From an uncultured Anaerolineae bacterium (lineage in GTDB: Bacteria > Chloroflexota > Anaerolineae > Anaerolineales > Villigracilaceae): 64,000 bases of DNA. This document shows positions 8,624 through 42,264 of the stretch, piece after piece (position 1 is the first letter of the stretch; each line of letters begins with the position of its first letter). The notes below the pieces were generated by a model. The model was given only the letters and a program-made list of their open reading frames with translations. It searched no databases and had not been told where the DNA came from. The DNA is taken from assembly GCA_903908605.1 (NCBI GenBank), contig CAIVSQ010000436.1:1-64000 (forward strand), read 5' to 3'. The position numbers were made by a program, and so were the translations under genes.

Positions 8624-10039
8624 CTACGAATCAAAGCCCAGCCCGAGCGAATCCAGCAGCCTCAGCCACAGGTCTCGCCGGCCCTCGTTGCGATCCGCCC
8701 GGTCCAGCGAACGGCGGGTGAGATTAACCACCCCCGAACGCAGCGGCTCCGGTGGAAAAGGCACCGGCTTTTCACGCACCATGCCCAGCCGGGTTCGCTC
8801 GGTGGCACGCCCATCCAGCAAATCAAGCATCACCTGCGCCCCAAAGCGCGAGGCCCCAACCCCCAGCCCCGTGTAGCCCAGCGCATATGCGCTCAGCCCG
8901 CCATGGGCCGTACCCCAAAAGACATTGAAGCGCGAACAGGTATCGATGGCTCCACCCCAGCGATGGGTGAAGCGCAGCCCTTCCAGCTGGGGAAAGGTCT
9001 GGAAAAAGTGATCTACCAATCGTTCAAACGAAGCCGGGTGTTGTTCGTAGCGCGGACCAAAACCATTGTTCCAATAATACACAGCGTCATAACCGCCCCA
9101 TAGAATCCGCCCATCTGCGCTAGTGCGGTAATAATGAAACTGGTTGCCAACATCCGAGACACCCTGGCGGGCCTGCCAGCCAATCTCAGCACGCTGGGCG
9201 GCCGAAAGCGGCTCAGTCATCAATACATAATCATAGACCGGCACAATATAATACGATAGGCGTTTAAGCAGCGGTGGGAAGGCGTTGGTGGCGAGCGCCA
9301 CCCGCGCCGAGCGCACAGTGGCATGGGCAGTACGCACATGGATAAAGTTGCCATCGCGCATCAATCCAAGCGCGGGTGTATTTTCGTAGATGCGAATACC
9401 CTGTTCAAGGCAGGCCTTACGCAAACCCCAGGCCAGGCGAGCCGGGTTAACCGTGGCTACATCGGGGTTAAACAAGCCGCCCAGGTAGGTGGGCGAATTA
9501 ACCACAGACCGCAATTCTTCACGTTCCAGCCAGGTATATTTTTCACCATACGGCGCTGCCTCGGCCGGCACGGCACGCAGGCCATCCAGCTGATACGGTT
9601 CAGTGGCAACCAGTAGTTCGCCCGAACGTTGGTAATCACAATCAAACCCAAGGTCTTTAACACTGGCCTCAAGCCCATCCAGGTTTTCCTTCCCGAGCCG
9701 GACCAGGCTGGCCAGTTCGGCCGGCCAACGGGCCAGTCCATTTTCCAGGCCATGAGTCAAGGAAGCATCCACAAACCCACCATTCCGCCCGCTGGCGCCC
9801 GAAGCCGCCTCACCTGCCTCGAGAATGATGATCTCACGTGACGGGTCAGCCTGGCGAGCCAGCAGAGCAGTCCATAACCCGGTGAAACCAGCCCCAATAA
9901 TCAACAGATCGGTACGGGCGTCTGCCCTCAAGCCAGGCAAAGGCTCGGGGCGGGCAGGATCATCCAGCCAAAAGGGCTGTGGCCTGGCGTCAGCCAGGGA
10001 TTTAAGCATATCGGGGCGGGGCTGATTGGCAAATGGCAT
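8624..10039 (-). CDS. FAD-dependent oxidoreductase (DAO/PuuB-like)
   Basis: TDLLIIGAGFTGLWTALLARQADPSREIIILEAGEAASGASGRNGGF dinucleotide-binding motif; C-terminal HGGLSAYALGYTGLGVGASRFGAQVMLDLLDG. Confidence 0.93.
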   Translation of the reverse strand: MPFANQPRPDMLKSLADARPQPFWLDDPARPEPLPGLRADARTDLLIIGAGFTGLWTALLARQADPSREIIILEAGEAASGASGRNGGFVDASLTHGLENGLARWPAELASLVRLGKENLDGLEASVKDLGFDCDYQRSGELLVATEPYQLDGLRAVPAEAAPYGEKYTWLEREELRSVVNSPTYLGGLFNPDVATVNPARLAWGLRKACLEQGIRIYENTPALGLMRDGNFIHVRTAHATVRSARVALATNAFPPLLKRLSYYIVPVYDYVLMTEPLSAAQRAEIGWQARQGVSDVGNQFHYYRTSADGRILWGGYDAVYYWNNGFGPRYEQHPASFERLVDHFFQTFPQLEGLRFTHRWGGAIDTCSRFNVFWGTAHGGLSAYALGYTGLGVGASRFGAQVMLDLLDGRATERTRLGMVREKPVPFPPEPLRSGVVNLTRRSLDRADRNEGRRDLWLRLLDSLGLGFDS

Positions 10040-13141: not shown

Positions 13142-15595
13142 ATGCCAACAAAAACAGGATATCACCAGGCGGGTCGCATAGATGCTACCTATTTCACCAG
13201 GCTTAAAAAAGTAACACAGGTCACCCCCACCGAACAAGGTATCCTGGCAGAAATCGATGACGAGCTGCTGCGCATCGACGTCATCCGCGCGGATATTTTA
13301 CGCATCAAGATCAGCCGCGGCCGTCATTTTGATGAGCAGCCCACCTTCGCAGTCTGTGCAGATTTAAATGCCCACCAGCCCACCTTCAAGCTGGATATTA
13401 CCGCTGAGCGCGCCTTGCTGGACACAGGTCAGATCACCCTTACCCTGGGCCGCACCCCCTTTCATCTCGAAGCCCGTCGCAAAGATGGCAGCCTGGTTTT
13501 CACCTCCATGCCCGAACAGGATGGCAGCAGCTGGGCCTATGCCACCCTCAATGACGAATTTGTCGTCTACCGTTCCTGCCGCCAGCAGGATGCCTTTCTC
13601 GGGCTGGGCGAAAAAACCGGCCGGCTGAACCGCAAAGGAGAGGACTATACCCTTTGGAACACAGACGTGCTCAATGGCAGCGCAGTCGCCGAGTTTAAAG
13701 CCGGCTATCCGTCCGGTCACCCGCGCGCAGATGAGACCAGCACCGGCTTCGACCCTTACTATGTCTCGATTCCATTCTTTTATCACCTCTCTGCCGAAGG
13801 CAGCGCAGCAGCTGGTTTCTTCGTAGATAACGGTTACCGCGCCAGGTTCGACTTTTCGCCCGCGGATGAGTATGGTTTCCATTTCCTCGGCGGGCAGTAC
13901 ACCGAATACATCTTCGCCGGACCACAACTCAGCGATATCCTGGCTGGCTACACCTGGCTGACCGGACGCATGCAGCCTCCTCCGCTCTGGTCACTGGGCT
14001 ACCACCAATGCCGCTGGCACGCCTATACACAAGCAACCCTCGAAGCACTGGCTGACCAGGTTCGTGCCCACAAAATTCCCTGCGACACCCTCTGGTTGGA
14101 TATTGACTACATGAACGGTTACCGGGTCTTCACCTGGAACCAGGAAGCCTTCCCGGATAGTGCCGCCACGCTAAAACGGCTGGGCGACCGGGGCTTTCGG
14201 GCCATCACCATCATCGACCCGGGTATCAAGTTTGACCCAGGCTACCCGGTCTATGACCAGGCCGTTGAGCGCGACGTACTCTGCAAGACCGAACAAGGCG
14301 CAACCTACATCGGCCAGGTTTGGCCGGGAAAAACCGTCTTCCCCGATTTCGTTACCCCCGAAGCACGCGCCTGGTGGGGTGAACTAAACGCCGCCCACGT
14401 CAAATCGGGCCTGGCAGGCATCTGGAATGACATGAACGAACCCGCCACAGGCGATATCCGCTCAGATGCCATGCGCTTTGGCAAGGGACAATACTCACAC
14501 GCACGTTTTCACAACCAGTACGCCTTGCTGATGGCCATGGGTACCACCGAAGGCTTGTTGCAAGCCATGCCAGACCGCCGCACCTTCGTCCTCTCACGGG
14601 CAGGCTTCGCCGGCATCCAGCGCTACGCCGCCAACTGGATGGGCGATAACCTATCACGTTGGGATCACCTCTGGATGAGCTTGCCAATGGGCATGGGGTT
14701 GGGCCTTTCTGGCCAACCATTCGTCGGAGCCGATATTGGTGGCTTTTCCGGCAATACCAACGCTGAACTTTTCACCCGCTGGATTCAGTGCGGGGCACTG
14801 GCTCCCTTTTGCCGCAACCACAGCAGCACCGGTCATATCGACCAGTACCCATGGTCCTTTGGTGAAGCCTATGAAGAACTGGCCCGCCAGGCGCTAGAAA
14901 TGCGCTATAAATTACTGCCCTATATCTATTCGGCCTTTGTGCACTCGGCCGAAACCGGCGCACCGGTGCAGCAAGCCCTGGTCTTCGCCTTCCAAAACGA
15001 TCCGACCCTGCGCGATATCGATGATCAATACCTGCTCGGCAGCCAATTGCTGGTAGCGCCCGTTTACAACCCCGGCACCACAGCCCGCCATGTCTACCTG
15101 CCAGAAGGCAGCTGGTACGATTGGCACAGCGGGGAATGCCTGCCCGGCAAACGCTTCGTAACCGCTGCCACCCCCATGGACTTTATCCCTGTCTACGCCC
15201 GTGGCGGGGCGGTCATCCCCACCTGGCCCGAAGCCCCTGCCACTACCGACGGCTACCACCCCGAAAAAATTGAGCTGCACATCTTCGTTCCCCTTGCCGA
15301 TGGCGAATACTCCTCCATGCTGCACGAAGACGACGGCCTGACCTTTGCCTTCCAAAATGGTAGCTTCCTGCGCACCACTTTCAGCCTGCGCCGCAGCGGC
15401 AACCAGATCAATCTGCATGGTCAGGTCAGCGGCCATGGCTACCCTGAATTCGCCCGCCATACATTTGAACTGGTCTGGCACGGGGCAACCCCAGAGAATA
15501 TCCTGGTCAACGGGCAAACCGTCACCGCCCAGAATGGGCGCCTGGTCATCCCCAACCGCGGCAGTGATCTGCAAATCAGCGCGCAGCTTCACTAA
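13142..15595 (+). CDS. GH31 alpha-glucosidase
   Basis: 817 aa; GIWNDMNEPA catalytic motif, LWLDIDYMNGYRVFTWN, GQPFVGADIGGFSGN. Confidence 0.95.
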   Translation: MPTKTGYHQAGRIDATYFTRLKKVTQVTPTEQGILAEIDDELLRIDVIRADILRIKISRGRHFDEQPTFAVCADLNAHQPTFKLDITAERALLDTGQITLTLGRTPFHLEARRKDGSLVFTSMPEQDGSSWAYATLNDEFVVYRSCRQQDAFLGLGEKTGRLNRKGEDYTLWNTDVLNGSAVAEFKAGYPSGHPRADETSTGFDPYYVSIPFFYHLSAEGSAAAGFFVDNGYRARFDFSPADEYGFHFLGGQYTEYIFAGPQLSDILAGYTWLTGRMQPPPLWSLGYHQCRWHAYTQATLEALADQVRAHKIPCDTLWLDIDYMNGYRVFTWNQEAFPDSAATLKRLGDRGFRAITIIDPGIKFDPGYPVYDQAVERDVLCKTEQGATYIGQVWPGKTVFPDFVTPEARAWWGELNAAHVKSGLAGIWNDMNEPATGDIRSDAMRFGKGQYSHARFHNQYALLMAMGTTEGLLQAMPDRRTFVLSRAGFAGIQRYAANWMGDNLSRWDHLWMSLPMGMGLGLSGQPFVGADIGGFSGNTNAELFTRWIQCGALAPFCRNHSSTGHIDQYPWSFGEAYEELARQALEMRYKLLPYIYSAFVHSAETGAPVQQALVFAFQNDPTLRDIDDQYLLGSQLLVAPVYNPGTTARHVYLPEGSWYDWHSGECLPGKRFVTAATPMDFIPVYARGGAVIPTWPEAPATTDGYHPEKIELHIFVPLADGEYSSMLHEDDGLTFAFQNGSFLRTTFSLRRSGNQINLHGQVSGHGYPEFARHTFELVWHGATPENILVNGQTVTAQNGRLVIPNRGSDLQISAQLH

Positions 15596-15804
15596 GATAC
15601 AATAGTGAAGAAAAACAGCATAAGCATCCTCACCTTACCCCCACTGCAACCAGCCCGGCTCGCTGGCCGGGTTGGCCCGTTCCTCAAAACCCAGGCCGCT
15701 TTTTTTACAGGCAAAAACGGCCTGCACTCACACAAGCCCCACCAGAGCCTGGCATTCGGCAGAGCAGTCTCCCTATCAGCACAAATGCCTCACAAGTCTC
15801 TTTC

Positions 15805-18800
15805 ATGACACCCAATATGCAGCCACCCCACTACCTCTCGCGCGTACTGCGCACCAAGATCATCCCGCCGCCTCTCAACGCACGGACACTTCCGCGCCCA
15901 CGGGTTCTCCTGGCGCTCCGCCAATCCCTCGAATACCGCCTGACCCTTTTGCAGGCCGGTGCCGGGTATGGCAAGAGCACCTCCCTGGCCGAAATGGCCC
16001 GCGAGATATCGCCCCTGATCTGGTACCAGGTAAACCCGGAGGACAATGACGCCCTCGTCTTCCTGCTGCACCTGTGCCACGCAATTGCACAGACCCTTCC
16101 AGGCATCCAGGACCTGCCGCTGGCCTACCTGGAAGCCTGGGAAGGCTCACAGGGCCCCCTGCCGTGGAGCGACGTGGTCGACGCCCTGATCAACGCCCTA
16201 AGCGCACATAACCCGGCCACCCCCATCTGCTTCGTGCTCGATGACGCCCACCTGGTAACCGAGAACGGCGAGGTCGTTTTCATCCTGGACCGATTAATCG
16301 CCCGCTCCCCGGCTCACCTGCACATCCTGCTCTCCGGTCGTCCTACCATCACACTGCCCGGCCTGGCACGCCTGCGCTCTCGTGGCGAGCTATTATCCCT
16401 CGACCAATCCGTACTGGCATTCACCAACCAGGAAACAGCCGCGCTCTTCAGCAGCTACTATGGGGTGGAACTGACCACCGATGAAGTCGACGCACTCGTT
16501 ACCTATTCAGAGGGCTGGGCCATTGCGCTGCAGCTGATCTGGCAAAGCATCCGCAGTCAGACGCTTTCACCGCTGGAATTCCCCGATCACTGGCAGGCCG
16601 GCTCACTAGACTCACTTTTCGAAATGCTCGCCCGTGAAGTCTTTGAAGGCCAACCCACCGATGTACGCGATTTCTTGCTGGTCACCGCCACCCTGCGCGA
16701 ACTTTCCCCAGAAGCCTGCAACGAACTGCGCTCAGCAACCGATTCAGCCGCCATGCTCTCCTACCTCAAACGTCAGGACCTGTTTGTAGTCGAAACCGCC
16801 GGCGGCGCGCTTCGTTATCATCACATCTTTCGTAATTTCCTTCACCTGCAAGCACCCGCCGAAGATCGCCGGCGTTGGAACCACGTGGCAGCTGTTTATT
16901 TCCTCAGGCTCAACAACCACGAAGCCGCCATCGATCACCTGCTGCGCGCGCAAGCCTGGGCCGAAGCTGCCGACCAGCTCAATTCTTACTCCCCCCTGCT
17001 ACTCGCCGCTGGTCGCCTGGATACACTGGCAACCTATATTGATGCCTTGCCCCCCGAAACCCTGCACCAACACCCCGGGCTGGTCTTCTCAATGGGTGAA
17101 CTCGCCCGCCTGCACAGCCGCTTTGAAGAAGCCCTCGGCTGGTACAACCAATCCGAAACCTTGTGGCGCATTCTCGGCCGCCAAGACGGCATAGCCCGGG
17201 CCTTGCGCGGGCAGGCACGTGTCTACTTGGATACCGTGAACCCCAGCAAAGCCCAGGAACTGCTCGAAAAAGCCACCCGCCTGAGCGATGGTTTCGATGA
17301 TCGTGAAACACAGGTCCGCCTGTTTGAACTGCTCGCCGAAAACAAGCTCAACGCCGGGCGCGTGGAAGAAGCCGAGCGCCTGCGCCAGCGCGCCAATGAA
17401 CTGCGCCTCGAAGGCCCCTCCAACGACCAACTGCTCTTCCGCGTCTGGCTGCGCACCGGCCGCCTGCAGGAGGCAAAAAACGGTTTGGAGCAACTTGCCC
17501 GCACCGAGATTCGCGAACCCGTTCAAATGCCGCGCGCTCACCGCGAAACCGTCCTGGTGCTCTCGCTGGTATATGCCTTCATGGGCCAGGGCGCCGAAGC
17601 CTACCAATCTGCCCTGGACGGCACAAAACGCGGCGAGGAACTAAAATCACCTTTTGTTACAGCCGTCGGGCTGATGCGCCAGGGGCATGCCCTCATGCTG
17701 CTGGGCGGTGCCCACAACTACCAGCTCGCCCGCCAGCTCTATGAAAACAGCATCGAAATCAGCCGCACCCTGGCAGTCACCCGCCTGCGCGTCGAAGCAG
17801 ATTGGGGGCTGTGCCGATCCTACGGCTACACCGGCGACCTCGTCCGAGCCCAACAGCACGCCCAGGACGCCATCGAGATCGCCGGCCAGGCTGGTGACGA
17901 GTGGATCGCCTCCCTCACCCGCCTTTCAATGGGCGCCAGCCTGGTCATGGCAGCCCGCTACGAAGCCGCCGAGCACTGGCTAAACCAGGCCGTAACGGGG
18001 TTCCAGGAATGTTCAGATACCTTCGGCCGCAGCACGGCGCGTCTCTGGCTTGCCCTGGGTTTCTTTCAACAAAAACAATACAACCGCCTGGCCCAGGTAC
18101 TGCCTGAGGTACTAAGCTCCTGCCGTGCAAATGGCTATGAATTTTTATTCAAGCGCTCTTCCTTCATCGGCGCATTGGATGAACGGATCTTCTTCCCCAT
18201 GCTGCTGCACGCCCGTAAACAGGGTTGGGAATCGCTCTACATCGGGCAAGTACTGGCTGGCTGTGGGCTGCCCGGCCTCGATCTGCACCCTGGCTACCAA
18301 CTGCGCGTGCAAACCCTGGGTAGCTTCCAGGTCTGGCGGGGCAGCGAACCGATCCCCTCCAACGGCTGGCGACGCGAAAAATCCCGGCATCTCTTTCAAC
18401 TGCTGCTCTCACAGCGCCACACCACCCTGGATCGCGACCAGATCTGCGAATATCTCTGGCCAGAAAGCGACCCACAGGTAGCCCAGCGCAACTTCAAAAT
18501 TACCCTCAACACCCTCTACCAGGTGCTGGAACCGGACCGCGACCCCGGCGCCGATTCGGCCTTCATCCAACGCGGGGGGGCCGCTTACAGCCTGCGCCGC
18601 ACCGCCGATCTCTACCTGGATGCCGATCAATTTGCCCAGGATGCCCGCCAGGCCTTGCGCTCCGGCCAGGGCGACCTGGCCAACCTGCTAGCGCTTGCCA
18701 GCCTTTACCAGGGCGAATTCCTACCCGAGACGCTCTACGAAACCTGGGCCGCCGAAGAACGCGAACGCCTGGCCGCCATTTTCCTCGAATTCTCCGACCT

Positions 18801-19047
18801 GCTGGTCGAACGCCTGGCTAACGAAAGCCGCTGGGCGGAGGTGATCGAACTCTCCCAACGCGTCTTAAAACAAGATAACTGCTGGGAACGCGCCTACCGC
18901 CACATCATGAACGCCTACCATCACCTCGGGGATCGCGGCCAGGTTGGGCGGACCTACCAACGATGTGTCCAGATCCTGCGGCAAGAGTTGGATGTGAGCC
19001 CGGCACCCGAAACCGAAAAACTCTACCAGGACCTCATCAAAGATTAG
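15805..19047 (+). CDS. STAND-ATPase/TPR transcriptional regulator with C-terminal winged-helix plus BTAD domain (MalT/SARP-like)
   Basis: Walker A LLQAGAGYGKST; TPR-rich middle; C-term LRVQTLGSFQVWRGSEPIPSNGWRREKSRHLFQLLLSQRHTTLDRDQICEYLWPESDPQVAQRNFKITLNTLYQVLEP and BTAD helices. Confidence 0.9.
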   Translation: MTPNMQPPHYLSRVLRTKIIPPPLNARTLPRPRVLLALRQSLEYRLTLLQAGAGYGKSTSLAEMAREISPLIWYQVNPEDNDALVFLLHLCHAIAQTLPGIQDLPLAYLEAWEGSQGPLPWSDVVDALINALSAHNPATPICFVLDDAHLVTENGEVVFILDRLIARSPAHLHILLSGRPTITLPGLARLRSRGELLSLDQSVLAFTNQETAALFSSYYGVELTTDEVDALVTYSEGWAIALQLIWQSIRSQTLSPLEFPDHWQAGSLDSLFEMLAREVFEGQPTDVRDFLLVTATLRELSPEACNELRSATDSAAMLSYLKRQDLFVVETAGGALRYHHIFRNFLHLQAPAEDRRRWNHVAAVYFLRLNNHEAAIDHLLRAQAWAEAADQLNSYSPLLLAAGRLDTLATYIDALPPETLHQHPGLVFSMGELARLHSRFEEALGWYNQSETLWRILGRQDGIARALRGQARVYLDTVNPSKAQELLEKATRLSDGFDDRETQVRLFELLAENKLNAGRVEEAERLRQRANELRLEGPSNDQLLFRVWLRTGRLQEAKNGLEQLARTEIREPVQMPRAHRETVLVLSLVYAFMGQGAEAYQSALDGTKRGEELKSPFVTAVGLMRQGHALMLLGGAHNYQLARQLYENSIEISRTLAVTRLRVEADWGLCRSYGYTGDLVRAQQHAQDAIEIAGQAGDEWIASLTRLSMGASLVMAARYEAAEHWLNQAVTGFQECSDTFGRSTARLWLALGFFQQKQYNRLAQVLPEVLSSCRANGYEFLFKRSSFIGALDERIFFPMLLHARKQGWESLYIGQVLAGCGLPGLDLHPGYQLRVQTLGSFQVWRGSEPIPSNGWRREKSRHLFQLLLSQRHTTLDRDQICEYLWPESDPQVAQRNFKITLNTLYQVLEPDRDPGADSAFIQRGGAAYSLRRTADLYLDADQFAQDARQALRSGQGDLANLLALASLYQGEFLPETLYETWAAEERERLAAIFLEFSDLLVERLANESRWAEVIELSQRVLKQDNCWERAYRHIMNAYHHLGDRGQVGRTYQRCVQILRQELDVSPAPETEKLYQDLIKD

Positions 19048-38986: not shown

Positions 38987-39005
38987 TATGTCTTTGTACC
39001 CACTT

Positions 39006-39044
39006 TTGAAGCCTGGATTGGGTTATTCTATAATCGTTACCCAA
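39006..39044 (+). promoter_or_regulatory. sigma70-like promoter with inverted repeat across the -10
   Basis: TTGAAG (39006-39011) - 17 nt - TATAAT (39029-39034); inverted repeat TTGGGT (39018-39023)/ACCCAA (39039-39044) brackets the -10. Confidence 0.6.
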
Positions 39045-39069
39045 CATAATCCATTCAATAGGTGCAAAA

Positions 39070-39213
39070 ATGAAAAAAACTACCTTCCAGCTCGGACTAT
39101 CCCTATCAAAAATTCAGAAACACCACCTGCAGCTCTTCCTGCTGGTTGTGACACTTGTCATGTTGGTATTGGGCGCTGGCGCTCCCATCGACGGCGGCGG
39201 TATCGGTAAATAA
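39070..39213 (+). CDS. 47-aa hydrophobic Gly-rich-tail peptide (not in the supplied ORF track)
   Basis: MKKTTFQLGLSLSKIQKHHLQLFLLVVTLVMLVLGAGAPIDGGGIGK*; RBS-like aggtg upstream; TAA abuts the GTG start of the next gene. Confidence 0.7.
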   Translation: MKKTTFQLGLSLSKIQKHHLQLFLLVVTLVMLVLGAGAPIDGGGIGK

Positions 39214-39813
39214 GTGATCCTGCTACCCGCCCTCCTCGCAGGGTTATTGGCTGGCTGGCTGGCGAGCAAGTGGCATGGCTCAGCCTGGCAGTTACCCCAA
39301 TTACAGCACACCTGGCTGGTGCTGATCTTCTTTCTTCCGCAATTCTTCGCTTTTTACCTGCCCGCCACACGCACCCACCTGTCCACCCTGGCAGCCGCAA
39401 CTTGCCTGGTCACCTCCCAAATTGGGCTTTTATTATTTTGTCTGGTCAATCCACGGTTACCCGGCATGCCCCTGCTGACCGTGGGGTTATCTTTCAATTT
39501 ACTGGCCGTCATCACAAACGGTGGTTTGATGCCCATCAGTACTATCACCGCCGGCAAATTAATCCCGGCCAGCCTGCTTGCCAACATATCGGTTGGCGCG
39601 CGCTTCAGCCCGGCTAGCAAAGATATCCTGCTCCTCCCAGAAATGATCAACCTGCCCTGGCTCTCCGACCGGTTCGTGGGTCCCTCCTGGATACCCTACC
39701 GTTTCGCATATAGCCTGGGAGATCTTCTCATCAGTACCGGCGTTTTCCTCTTATTGGCTTTGCCAAATTCCCAAAGGAAGGTTCATAAAAATGTTAACCA
39801 ACCAGTTATTTGA
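39214..39813 (+). CDS. DUF5317-like multi-TM membrane protein
   Basis: 199 aa, GTG start; NLLAVITNGGLMPISTITAG, SKDILLLPEMINLPWLSDRF, YSLGDLLISTGVF pattern recalled for DUF5317. Confidence 0.75.
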   Translation: MILLPALLAGLLAGWLASKWHGSAWQLPQLQHTWLVLIFFLPQFFAFYLPATRTHLSTLAAATCLVTSQIGLLLFCLVNPRLPGMPLLTVGLSFNLLAVITNGGLMPISTITAGKLIPASLLANISVGARFSPASKDILLLPEMINLPWLSDRFVGPSWIPYRFAYSLGDLLISTGVFLLLALPNSQRKVHKNVNQPVI

Positions 39814-40111
39814 TCAGCATATTGGTGTTCGCAGCGGTCGCAAGGATACCAACGAAATCAGCCGCTTGCTAGCCGCGGCGGTTGTCAGCCGGCAATTTTG
39901 CGCCCTCTTGCTAAACGACCCGGCCCGGGCCATCAGCAGCGGCTACGCCGGGGAACATTTTTCCCTAAGCACTGAGGAGTACCAATTCGTACTCGCAGCA
40001 AAAGCCACCACCCTGCCAGAGTTTGCCCAGCATTTATGTAAATTACTGCCCACCTCCACCCAGGGCTCGAAATCCTCATTATTAAACGAAAATTACCAGG
40101 TACGCTTATAG
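39791..40111 (+). CDS. small protein resembling NHLP-clan (Os1348-like) leader-type proteins
   Basis: 106 aa; ISRLLAAAVVSRQFCALLLNDPARAISSGYAGEHFSLSTEEYQFVLAAKATTLPEFAQHL, a compact helical leader-like core; overlaps the upstream gene by 23 nt. Confidence 0.6.
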   Translation: MLTNQLFDQHIGVRSGRKDTNEISRLLAAAVVSRQFCALLLNDPARAISSGYAGEHFSLSTEEYQFVLAAKATTLPEFAQHLCKLLPTSTQGSKSSLLNENYQVRL

Positions 40112-40233
40112 CAAGGTAAAGTTTCGAATGACACAACCCACCCACTCCCACAAATTACGCATACTACCGCTTGAAATTACGGCGGAATAAGGTACTTCGG
40201 ATTTGTGAACTCCCTGGGTATAGAAAGAACGGT

Positions 40234-42264
40234 ATGAAACCCATATCCCCATCCGTGGAAACCCGGTTTCCAGGACGCCCATCCAGTGACACGGATGCAA
40301 TCCTGAAAACCATATTCCAAATCTTCCCTGATTTACTCTTTTATCTTGATGAGCATGGGGTCATCATCAATTATCTCGCCAGCGAGAGTGTCAACTTCTT
40401 CACCAGCCCCGAACAATGCCTGGGCCGGCATGTGTTGGATATCTTCCCTCCGCACGCCGCAGCGCAGGTACTTTCGGCCATGAACAAGACCCTGCAAAAC
40501 GGGGAAATTTCCACCATCGATTACGAAGTTTCCACCAGTCCTCAAAAACTGTCCTACTCCATTAACTGCCTCAAGATCAAGACCTCCAACCTGATCCTGA
40601 TCGTAAGAGATACAACCGAACAAAAGCGCAAAGCAGATTTGGCTGAACAACACCGCAAATTGATGGGTACCCTGCAGGAAAGTGCTCGCCAGCTTTCGAG
40701 AGAACTGGATAGTCAGGTATTGGGGAATGTCATCACCCAAGCCTGTGTTGAGTATCTTGGCGCAAGCGAGGTTTGGCTGGGATGGTTAAAAATCGGCCAG
40801 GGCATGCAAGAGCTTACCTATTTATCAACCGGCTCAACAAAAACCAGCTTGAGCAAACCCACTGACAATGAAATAAACACGCTGCTGGTTAATAAATTAG
40901 CGATCTTGGAAACCTCCGACCCCGGCTCGAACAGCCAACCATACAGCCGGGCCTTATTCCCCATCCTGGCAAATAACCAGGTTATGGGTGTTTTAGGTTT
41001 GGTGGTTGAGCAGGCCGATTTTTTCACCCCCGAAATGATCGAATACTTTATTGCCTATAACTCGCTGGTCGGATCGGCTATACAAAATGCCCATCTCTAC
41101 GAAGATTCGCGCCGGCAGCTCAGCCAGATGCAAACACTGCGCTCGATTGACCAGGCCATCCTCTCCAGCATGGATATGAAATCCATGACCGAAATCATCC
41201 TGAAAGAGGTCGCCAAGCACATCCACGTCGACGCCCTCTCCCTGCTGATCCTTGACCCAAAAACACAGATGCTCAACTTTGTGGATGGTTTTGGCTTCCA
41301 CTACGAAACCCTGCGTCATTCGCACTTAAGAATTGGCGAGAGCTTCGCGGGCCAGGTTGCACTAGAAAAAAGAATCGTATACGTGGAAAACCTGCAGAAC
41401 GACCCAAAAAACTTTTCGCGCGCCGCCAGATTCCATGAAGAAGGCTTTATGATGTACCTGGGCACCCCGCTCATCGCCCGCTCCGAAGTAAGGGGAGTGC
41501 TGGAAATTTTCCAACGCCGGCCCTTTGAACCGGACGAAGAGTGGTACACCATGCTGGAAACCCTTTCCAACCAGATCGCAATCGCCATAGATAACACCCT
41601 ACTCGTCAAATTCCTAAAGGATTCCCGGCTCGAATTAACCAACGCTTACGATGCCACTATCGAAGGCCTGTCTCGAGCCCTTGAACTACGCGACCGGGAG
41701 ACCGAAGGACATACCCGCCGGGTCGCTAAAATGACGGTTGAACTGGCTCGCCGCATGGGAGTTTCGGATGCCGATATGCCCCTGGTACACCAGGGCGCGC
41801 TGTTGCACGACATCGGCAAGATGGGCATCCCGGATGCCATCCTGCTCAAGCCAGGTTCCCTGCTGCCAGATGAATGGGAAGTCATGAAACAACACCCGCT
41901 CTATGCCTACCAACTGCTCGCACAGGTGGAGCATCTCAAACAGGCCATGGATATTCCACTCTACCACCACGAAAAATGGGACGGCAGCGGCTACCCCTAT
42001 GGACTAAAGGGCGAACAGATTCCCTTCCCAGCCCGGCTTTTTTCGATTGTGGATGTCTATGACGCGCTGACATCGAATCGCCCCTATCGTTCCGCCTGGC
42101 CAGTTGATAAAACCATGACCTACCTGCAATCACAATCAAAAATATTTTTTGACCCCGCTGTAGTGCCTGTCTTCAGGCAGTTGATCCTGCGCGATACCAT
42201 CCCCATGCGCCGCGATGCCCGCAGTCATTCCAAAACCACCCCCATACAACAGTTGTTCAAGTAG
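40234..42264 (+). CDS. PAS/GAF sensor with C-terminal HD-GYP domain
   Basis: GHTRRVAKMTVELARRMG...GALLHDIGKMGIPDAILLKPG...YHHEKWDGSGYPYGLKGEQIPFPARLFSIVDVYDALTSNRPYR. Confidence 0.94.
   Translation: MKPISPSVETRFPGRPSSDTDAILKTIFQIFPDLLFYLDEHGVIINYLASESVNFFTSPEQCLGRHVLDIFPPHAAAQVLSAMNKTLQNGEISTIDYEVSTSPQKLSYSINCLKIKTSNLILIVRDTTEQKRKADLAEQHRKLMGTLQESARQLSRELDSQVLGNVITQACVEYLGASEVWLGWLKIGQGMQELTYLSTGSTKTSLSKPTDNEINTLLVNKLAILETSDPGSNSQPYSRALFPILANNQVMGVLGLVVEQADFFTPEMIEYFIAYNSLVGSAIQNAHLYEDSRRQLSQMQTLRSIDQAILSSMDMKSMTEIILKEVAKHIHVDALSLLILDPKTQMLNFVDGFGFHYETLRHSHLRIGESFAGQVALEKRIVYVENLQNDPKNFSRAARFHEEGFMMYLGTPLIARSEVRGVLEIFQRRPFEPDEEWYTMLETLSNQIAIAIDNTLLVKFLKDSRLELTNAYDATIEGLSRALELRDRETEGHTRRVAKMTVELARRMGVSDADMPLVHQGALLHDIGKMGIPDAILLKPGSLLPDEWEVMKQHPLYAYQLLAQVEHLKQAMDIPLYHHEKWDGSGYPYGLKGEQIPFPARLFSIVDVYDALTSNRPYRSAWPVDKTMTYLQSQSKIFFDPAVVPVFRQLILRDTIPMRRDARSHSKTTPIQQLFK

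Follow-up and report, generated by a model that had tools for sequence, protein, structure and literature searches.

A stretch of 64,000 nucleotides (nt) from an uncultured Anaerolineae bacterium of the phylum Chloroflexota (contig CAIVSQ010000436.1; hereafter the window) encodes a small peptide of 47 amino acids (aa) between the gene for a large BTAD regulator and the gene for a DUF5317 membrane protein. Judged by its conservation in sequence, this open reading frame (ORF) is a real, strongly conserved gene. Its most constant partner is the upstream regulator, which carries BTAD, STAND, and TPR domains. The reading we prefer, to which we give an even chance, is that the locus is a self-regulated (autoinducing) peptide-signaling cassette wired as AfsR is to afsS in Streptomyces. 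The recurrent gene order is regulator, peptide gene or genes, DUF5317, a small Os1348-like protein, and an HD-GYP protein, whose domain is associated with breakdown of cyclic di-GMP (c-di-GMP).

The peptide gene and its regulator

The initial annotation of the window had noted the 47-aa ORF and its neighbors, and the layout is as it described (Table 1). The TAA of the peptide gene (39211-39213) abuts the GTG at 39214 of a gene whose product matches PF17248 (E 7.4e-26; 91.4 bits against a curated cut-off of 25). The DUF5317 gene overlaps the gene for a 106-aa protein (39791 versus 39813), a PAS/GAF/HD-GYP gene follows, and the BTAD regulator gene lies directly upstream, with 83 nt between its stop (38986) and the start of the peptide (39070).

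Three lines of evidence rule out a chance ORF: conservation at related loci, matches from a search blind to neighboring genes, and selection on the coding sequence. The annotation would have been weakened had the ORF failed to recur 5' of DUF5317, and such failure was not seen. By tblastn with low-complexity filtering off, a peptide homologue precedes DUF5317 in 13/13 loci of 12 relative genomes (one genome with two loci), at E values from 3e-5 to 9e-16; 12 of these loci also have a BTAD regulator before the peptide, and the remaining locus ends at a contig end. A scan of named genomes, some of which overlap the set of relatives, yielded 44 Anaerolineae loci, with the peptide in 44/44, the regulator in 41/44 (the other 3 are contig ends), the Os1348-like protein in 43/44, and a recognized HD-GYP protein in 36/44; the proposed association of DUF5317 with HD-GYP is thus recurrent. 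When a peptide profile was searched without regard to neighbors, the peptide appeared in 25 of 199 genomes of the class, with E values down to 3e-23. All but one of the matches adjoin a BTAD gene, and the lone exception (L095) is a 1529-aa frame that is probably spurious. Finally, the pooled ratio of nonsynonymous to synonymous substitution rates (dN/dS) of the peptide is 0.15 over 13 disjoint pairs, which indicates purifying selection.

In the consensus, the basic head of the peptide is followed by a motif close to KINRQHIQL and then by a hydrophobic helix that ends in LVLGxGAP; a short glycine-rich tail, which reads IDGGGIGK in the window, closes the sequence. The basic head, hydrophobic core, and tail recognized in the single sequence are thus features of the family: the N-terminal side is positive in 70 of 71 homologues, and the mean charge is +3.0 before the helix and -0.6 in the tail. 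Lengths range from 30 to 63 aa. Loci carry one to three tandem copies (L046 has two, L067 and L054 three each), some with identical tails and some each with its own promoter repeat; no further GAP-type peptide was found elsewhere in the window. In L054 (the same locus as L022), the three peptide genes lie in tandem at positions 9002-9978, a separate 12-bp repeat promoter before each, and one of the three peptides (63 aa) carries an extra N-terminal hydrophobic segment.

The regulator begins with a MalT-like STAND NTPase (residues 26-475), continues through a TPR middle, and ends in a SARP winged helix plus BTAD (residues ~862-1095); the OmpR-type DNA-binding domain followed by BTAD that defines a SARP domain is present. 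Pfam matches are BTAD (1.4e-19), TPR_12 (1.7e-17), and TPR_MalT (2.1e-7). NCBIfam matches to MalT (4.5e-61) and AfsR (9.8e-19), together with PDB sequence matches to MalT (8bob, 7.9e-31 over 28-440) and AfsR (8hvr, 5.9e-6 over 896-1093), identify it as a hybrid of MalT-like STAND and AfsR-like SARP parts. Intact homologues are open frames of ~1070-1140 aa. Where the initial annotation proposed a functional module, its recurrence is borne out. Its choice of key partners is not: the regulator, mentioned there merely as lying upstream, is the most constant member and is accompanied by a SARP-type promoter. A second large ORF resembling a BTAD regulator, a 1159-aa frame that scores 124 bits against the regulator of the cassette, lies at window positions 15568-19044 and adjoins a run of thiolase/acyl-CoA ligase-like genes.

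Table 1. Positions of the cassette features in the window
Feature	Position	Strand	Remarks
BTAD regulator gene, 1096 aa	35696..38986	+	Listed with a TTG start, which may not be the true one
Putative SARP operator, degenerate direct repeat of period 12 bp (TTTGTACCC / TTTGAAGCC)	38993..39013	+	
Putative -10 element, TATTCT at 39024 overlapping TATAAT at 39029	39024..39034	+	
Shine-Dalgarno-like AGGTG of the peptide gene	39060..39064	+	Similar elements before most homologues
Membrane peptide, 47 aa (MKKTTFQLGLSLSKIQKHHLQLFLLVVTLVMLVLGAGAPIDGGGIGK), ATG start	39070..39213, stop included	+	
DUF5317 membrane protein, 199 aa, GTG start	39214..39813	+	PF17248
Os1348-like (NHLP clan) protein, 106 aa	39791..40111	+	Weak NF038399 match
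PAS/GAF/HD-GYP protein	40234..42264	+	First in-frame ATG 40234; longest frame from TTG 40171

A direct repeat in the promoters of many peptide genes

The anatomy of the promoter between them suggests a link between the regulator and the peptide gene. Upstream of the peptides lies a direct repeat in two copies, typically TTTTGAAGCCTG twice. When the scoring assumed no sequence, repeats of period 12 that match at 8 or more of 9 positions turned up in 44 of 71 peptide promoters, against 0.5 expected and a maximum of 3 in dinucleotide-preserving shuffles. None of the other periods scored comes near this count, and the period-12 repeat occurs in 2.2% of 1340 other sequence windows from the same loci. 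The 71 promoters are related by descent, so they are not fully independent. The repeat unit nevertheless varies by lineage (TTTTGAAGCCTG, TGTAAGCACTTT, CTCTGTCCCCAT, and others) while the 12-bp period is retained; the period is therefore not merely the shared descent of one sequence.

The repeat also stands at a fixed distance from a putative -10 box. Of the 36 promoters in the TTTGAAGCC class, 32, that of the window among them, have a TANNNT box starting 10 bp downstream of the second TTTGAAGCC; counted from the 11-mer TTTGAAGCCTG, the same box lies 8 bp downstream. In published SARP promoters, direct repeats overlap the -35 element, the repeats are 11 or 22 bp apart, and the 3' repeat lies 8 bp from the -10 element (PMC10936776). 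The -10 spacing of the cassette agrees with this layout, whereas the period differs (12 bp in most promoters, 11 in the published ones). Analogy gives good support to activation of the peptide operon by the regulator upstream of it, in the manner of AfsR and afsS.

Proposed circuit, rival readings, and known systems

In the circuit that we propose, the STAND-TPR-SARP regulator would bind the 12-bp-period repeat covering the -35 region, as promoter anatomy and adjacency suggest, and once bound would activate the promoter of the peptide operon. By the positive-inside rule, the peptide would insert with its N-terminus inside and its C-terminus outside, exposing the short tail, rich in glycine, that follows the conserved GxGAP at the end of the helix. 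DUF5317 would probably handle the peptide in the membrane, by exporting it, cleaving it, or conferring immunity to it. Feedback on the regulator would then come from the tail or from the entire membrane peptide, most simply as a ligand of the regulator's TPR or STAND part, and would close an autoinduction loop. Outputs would include the HD-GYP enzyme of the operon, which would degrade c-di-GMP; in related genomes they would extend to a few distant repeat-bearing genes, such as those for giant secreted RHS-repeat proteins. We infer DNA binding, secretion, processing or maturation, sensing of the peptide, and c-di-GMP output from this arrangement; a direct role of the cassette in c-di-GMP control is one option.

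Several observations weigh against this circuit. The cassette contains no importer or known maturation protease, and DUF5317 has no PDB fold match (best E 4.8) or known catalytic motif. Adjacency and TPRs alone are what suggest a receptor role for the regulator; to reach a cytoplasmic STAND-TPR protein, the peptide would have to be imported, or else be read from inside while in the membrane. The peptide tail is variable, with only the proline and some glycines well kept, and the repeat found in the window is an imperfect one, with 7/9 matches at a period of 12 bp. In addition, at some loci (L194 and L195) the regulator and peptide stand without DUF5317 or with no other recognizable gene.

The main rival takes the peptide for a resident small subunit of the membrane, not secreted, which binds or tunes DUF5317 and/or the c-di-GMP enzyme; the SARP regulator would answer another signal, and there would be no cell–cell signaling. 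We regard this as rather unlikely. It draws support from the abutting peptide and DUF5317 genes, where translational coupling is likely, and from short peptides in other contexts. At eight loci read in other classes, an ORF of 24-33 aa, of the type M[KR]...TM...GGASLKGL, precedes an HD-GYP-DUF5317 pair, and on a Euzebya plasmid an unannotated short GAP-like ORF (14 bits, weak) stands just before the neighboring GGDEF/EAL gene. Homology of these short peptides is suggestive, not proven. Some versions of the cassette lack DUF5317, some the 106-aa-type protein, and some HD-GYP; in five without DUF5317 (L196, L199, L252, L255, and L258) the peptide has lost the GxGAP motif and kept the tail, as if DUF5317 recognized GxGAP. 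A strict dependence is contradicted by L194 and L195, whose peptides keep GAGAP with no DUF5317 nearby, so that the link is only suggestive. These two loci also count against the subunit reading, as do an HD-GYP protein that is soluble in the window and absent from several cassettes, the constancy of the regulator as partner, and tandem copies with the same tail, which suit a signal better.

The remaining alternatives are less likely. A bacteriocin-like antimicrobial, with DUF5317 providing immunity or export and the SARP regulator as cluster-situated activator, is improbable. The peptide is indeed small and cationic-hydrophobic, SARP regulators classically control antibiotic clusters, as in Streptomyces (PMC10972967), DUF5317 can be fused to MFS_3 ('transmembrane secretion effector'), and the presence of giant RHS proteins downstream of the cassette's repeat hints at competition. 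Yet the peptide sequence is strongly conserved across an order, it matches no bacteriocin family and has no modifying enzyme, and HD-GYP and Os1348-like proteins are its regular partners. Bacteriocins usually diversify faster. Least probable is a leader that would act on DUF5317 through its translation rather than its product, whether by coupling or by attenuation. Many loci do have abutting or overlapping stop and start codons, as a leader would have it, but the conservation is at the amino-acid level (the dN/dS given above), peptide copies are duplicated, peptides exist without DUF5317, and the gap to DUF5317 exceeds 70 nt in some loci (L080).

The proposed circuit has counterparts among known systems. 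Like AfsR, the regulator combines SARP, nucleotide-binding STAND, and TPR parts and adjoins the gene of a small protein, and in both promoters direct repeats overlap -35 and lie 8 bp before -10 (PMC10936776), the operator and -10 element of the cassette being putative. Unlike AfsR, its STAND is MalT-like and N-terminal and its SARP domain C-terminal, with a repeat period of 12 bp, not 11; the small gene encodes a membrane peptide rather than the sigma-like AfsS, and DUF5317, Os1348-like, and HD-GYP genes follow. RRNPP systems are recognized by a propeptide of 10-100 aa, secretion by Sec/PptAB, a receptor of 250-500 aa with TPRs, and adjacent genes (PMC10075063). The cassette shares with them (for example, Rgg/SHP of Firmicutes) the propeptide size (30-63 aa), a small peptide with a basic head and hydrophobic stretch, the TPRs of the putative receptor and its adjacency to the peptide, and apparent autoregulation. 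It differs in its 1096-aa regulator with STAND and SARP domains, well beyond the receptor size, and in its Chloroflexota host. By analogy, the circuit would be functionally similar to RRNPP quorum sensing, with different domains and outside the receptor-size criterion. The AgrBD pair likewise joins a small membrane peptide and a multi-transmembrane protein in one operon; DUF5317 belongs to another family than AgrB, no fold in the PDB matches it, and the cassette has no histidine kinase pair. An Agr-type peptide was rejected: the window tail has no Cys, Ser, or Thr for a (thio)lactone, and only DUF5317 was matched, no AgrB-family cysteine endopeptidase.

The wiring is thus of a known kind, that of AfsR/afsS and functionally near RRNPP, and there is a fair chance that it is more. 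As the initial annotation supposed, the cassette appears undescribed: the peptide has no convincing Pfam or NCBIfam family match, and a search of papers, with most subscription journals and preprints outside its scope, turned up nothing on the peptide family or the cassette. Nor did the open literature searched contain a peptide-signaling system for Chloroflexota. We tentatively suggest that this may be the first peptide-communication system of the phylum, unrelated in sequence to known ones, in which a membrane-tail peptide, a STAND-TPR-SARP regulator, and the unexplored fold of DUF5317 would control c-di-GMP turnover and RHS surface proteins. Members of the phylum abound in soils, sediments, sludge, and groundwater. 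A peptide without a matching family, a probable regulator, a putative operator, and a short list of targets together make the circuit readily testable. If the reading is true, its shorter peptide relatives encoded ahead of HD-GYP/DUF5317 or EAL/DUF5317 genes in other classes and on an actinobacterial plasmid would point to an ancient peptide–c-di-GMP module.

Partner proteins and distant repeat sites

The cassette supplies genomic context for DUF5317, a widespread membrane family whose structure is confidently predicted and unmatched in the PDB, and of which we found no mention in the literature searched. The AlphaFold2 model (pLDDT 94.7) has about five long helices. A GxGD-type intramembrane protease was considered on account of two invariant aspartates (D152 and D170, the latter in an SxGD context); the fold search gave it no support. 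Of 61 genomes, 13 had a DUF5317 relative, among them that of the window; the cassette is patchy, with detectable DUF5317 in only 1 of 10 same-genus relatives. More broadly, the family occurs in 119 of 400 Chloroflexota genomes and also in Thermotoga maritima and Thermus, and in other Chloroflexota classes it often follows an HD-GYP gene. At L161, L163, and L165, beside HD-GYP genes, DUF5317 is fused to a C-terminal MFS transporter domain (MFS_3/MFS_1, exporter-like), and on the Euzebya pacifica plasmid pEDY32-46I (L130:5917-8457) it is joined to an EAL domain, with a GGDEF/EAL gene alongside. These fusions connect DUF5317 with export and with c-di-GMP.

The 106-aa protein matches NF038399 at E 4.4e-5 and 23.5 bits, below the curated cut-off of 40 bits. 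Among 58 aligned homologues, itself included, 52 match that family at E <= 0.001 (best 4.7e-16), so that it probably belongs near the Os1348 family. The initial annotation had called this protein leader-like, a reading that finds no support: the homologues end shortly after the conserved domain, with no sign of leader plus core peptide. Its resemblance to small proteins of the Os1348/NHLP clan lies in the NF038399 matches of its homologues; unlike them, it falls short of the curated cut-off and has no core peptide and no adjacent enzymes for ribosomally synthesized and post-translationally modified peptides (RiPPs). An NHLP-clan RiPP precursor was rejected on the last two of these grounds. A PDB fold search with its model (pLDDT 69.7) gave no match. 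The HD-GYP protein matches PF13487 (HD_5, 3.3e-36), GAF (2e-19), and PAS_4 (1.5e-10), and its signatures HDIGK and HHEKWDGSGYP are intact in translation.

The promoter repeat also occurs away from the cassette. In its doubled form with at most 1 mismatch, it is found in 42 of 150 genomes of the family, against 0 for a reversed-pattern control, and most of these sites are cassette promoters. In the window's genome, the peptide promoter is the sole match to its repeat at up to 3 mismatches. Five sites in other genomes (L218, L219, L222, L263, and L267) precede giant secreted proteins of the RHS-repeat/SpvB type, at least 1888-2880 aa long (L218:3271-9999, L219:4980-10643, and L222:3-8642), one of which carries S-layer homology domains; in L220 the repeat precedes a histidine kinase gene. 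We assume that distant sites answer to the cassette regulator rather than to a paralogue. Translations inspected by eye only place further repeat sites before sensor-like, HU-like, and secreted proteins; by the same inspection, HU/IHF-like DNA-binding proteins of one type stand just behind the repeat in L219, L254, and L256.

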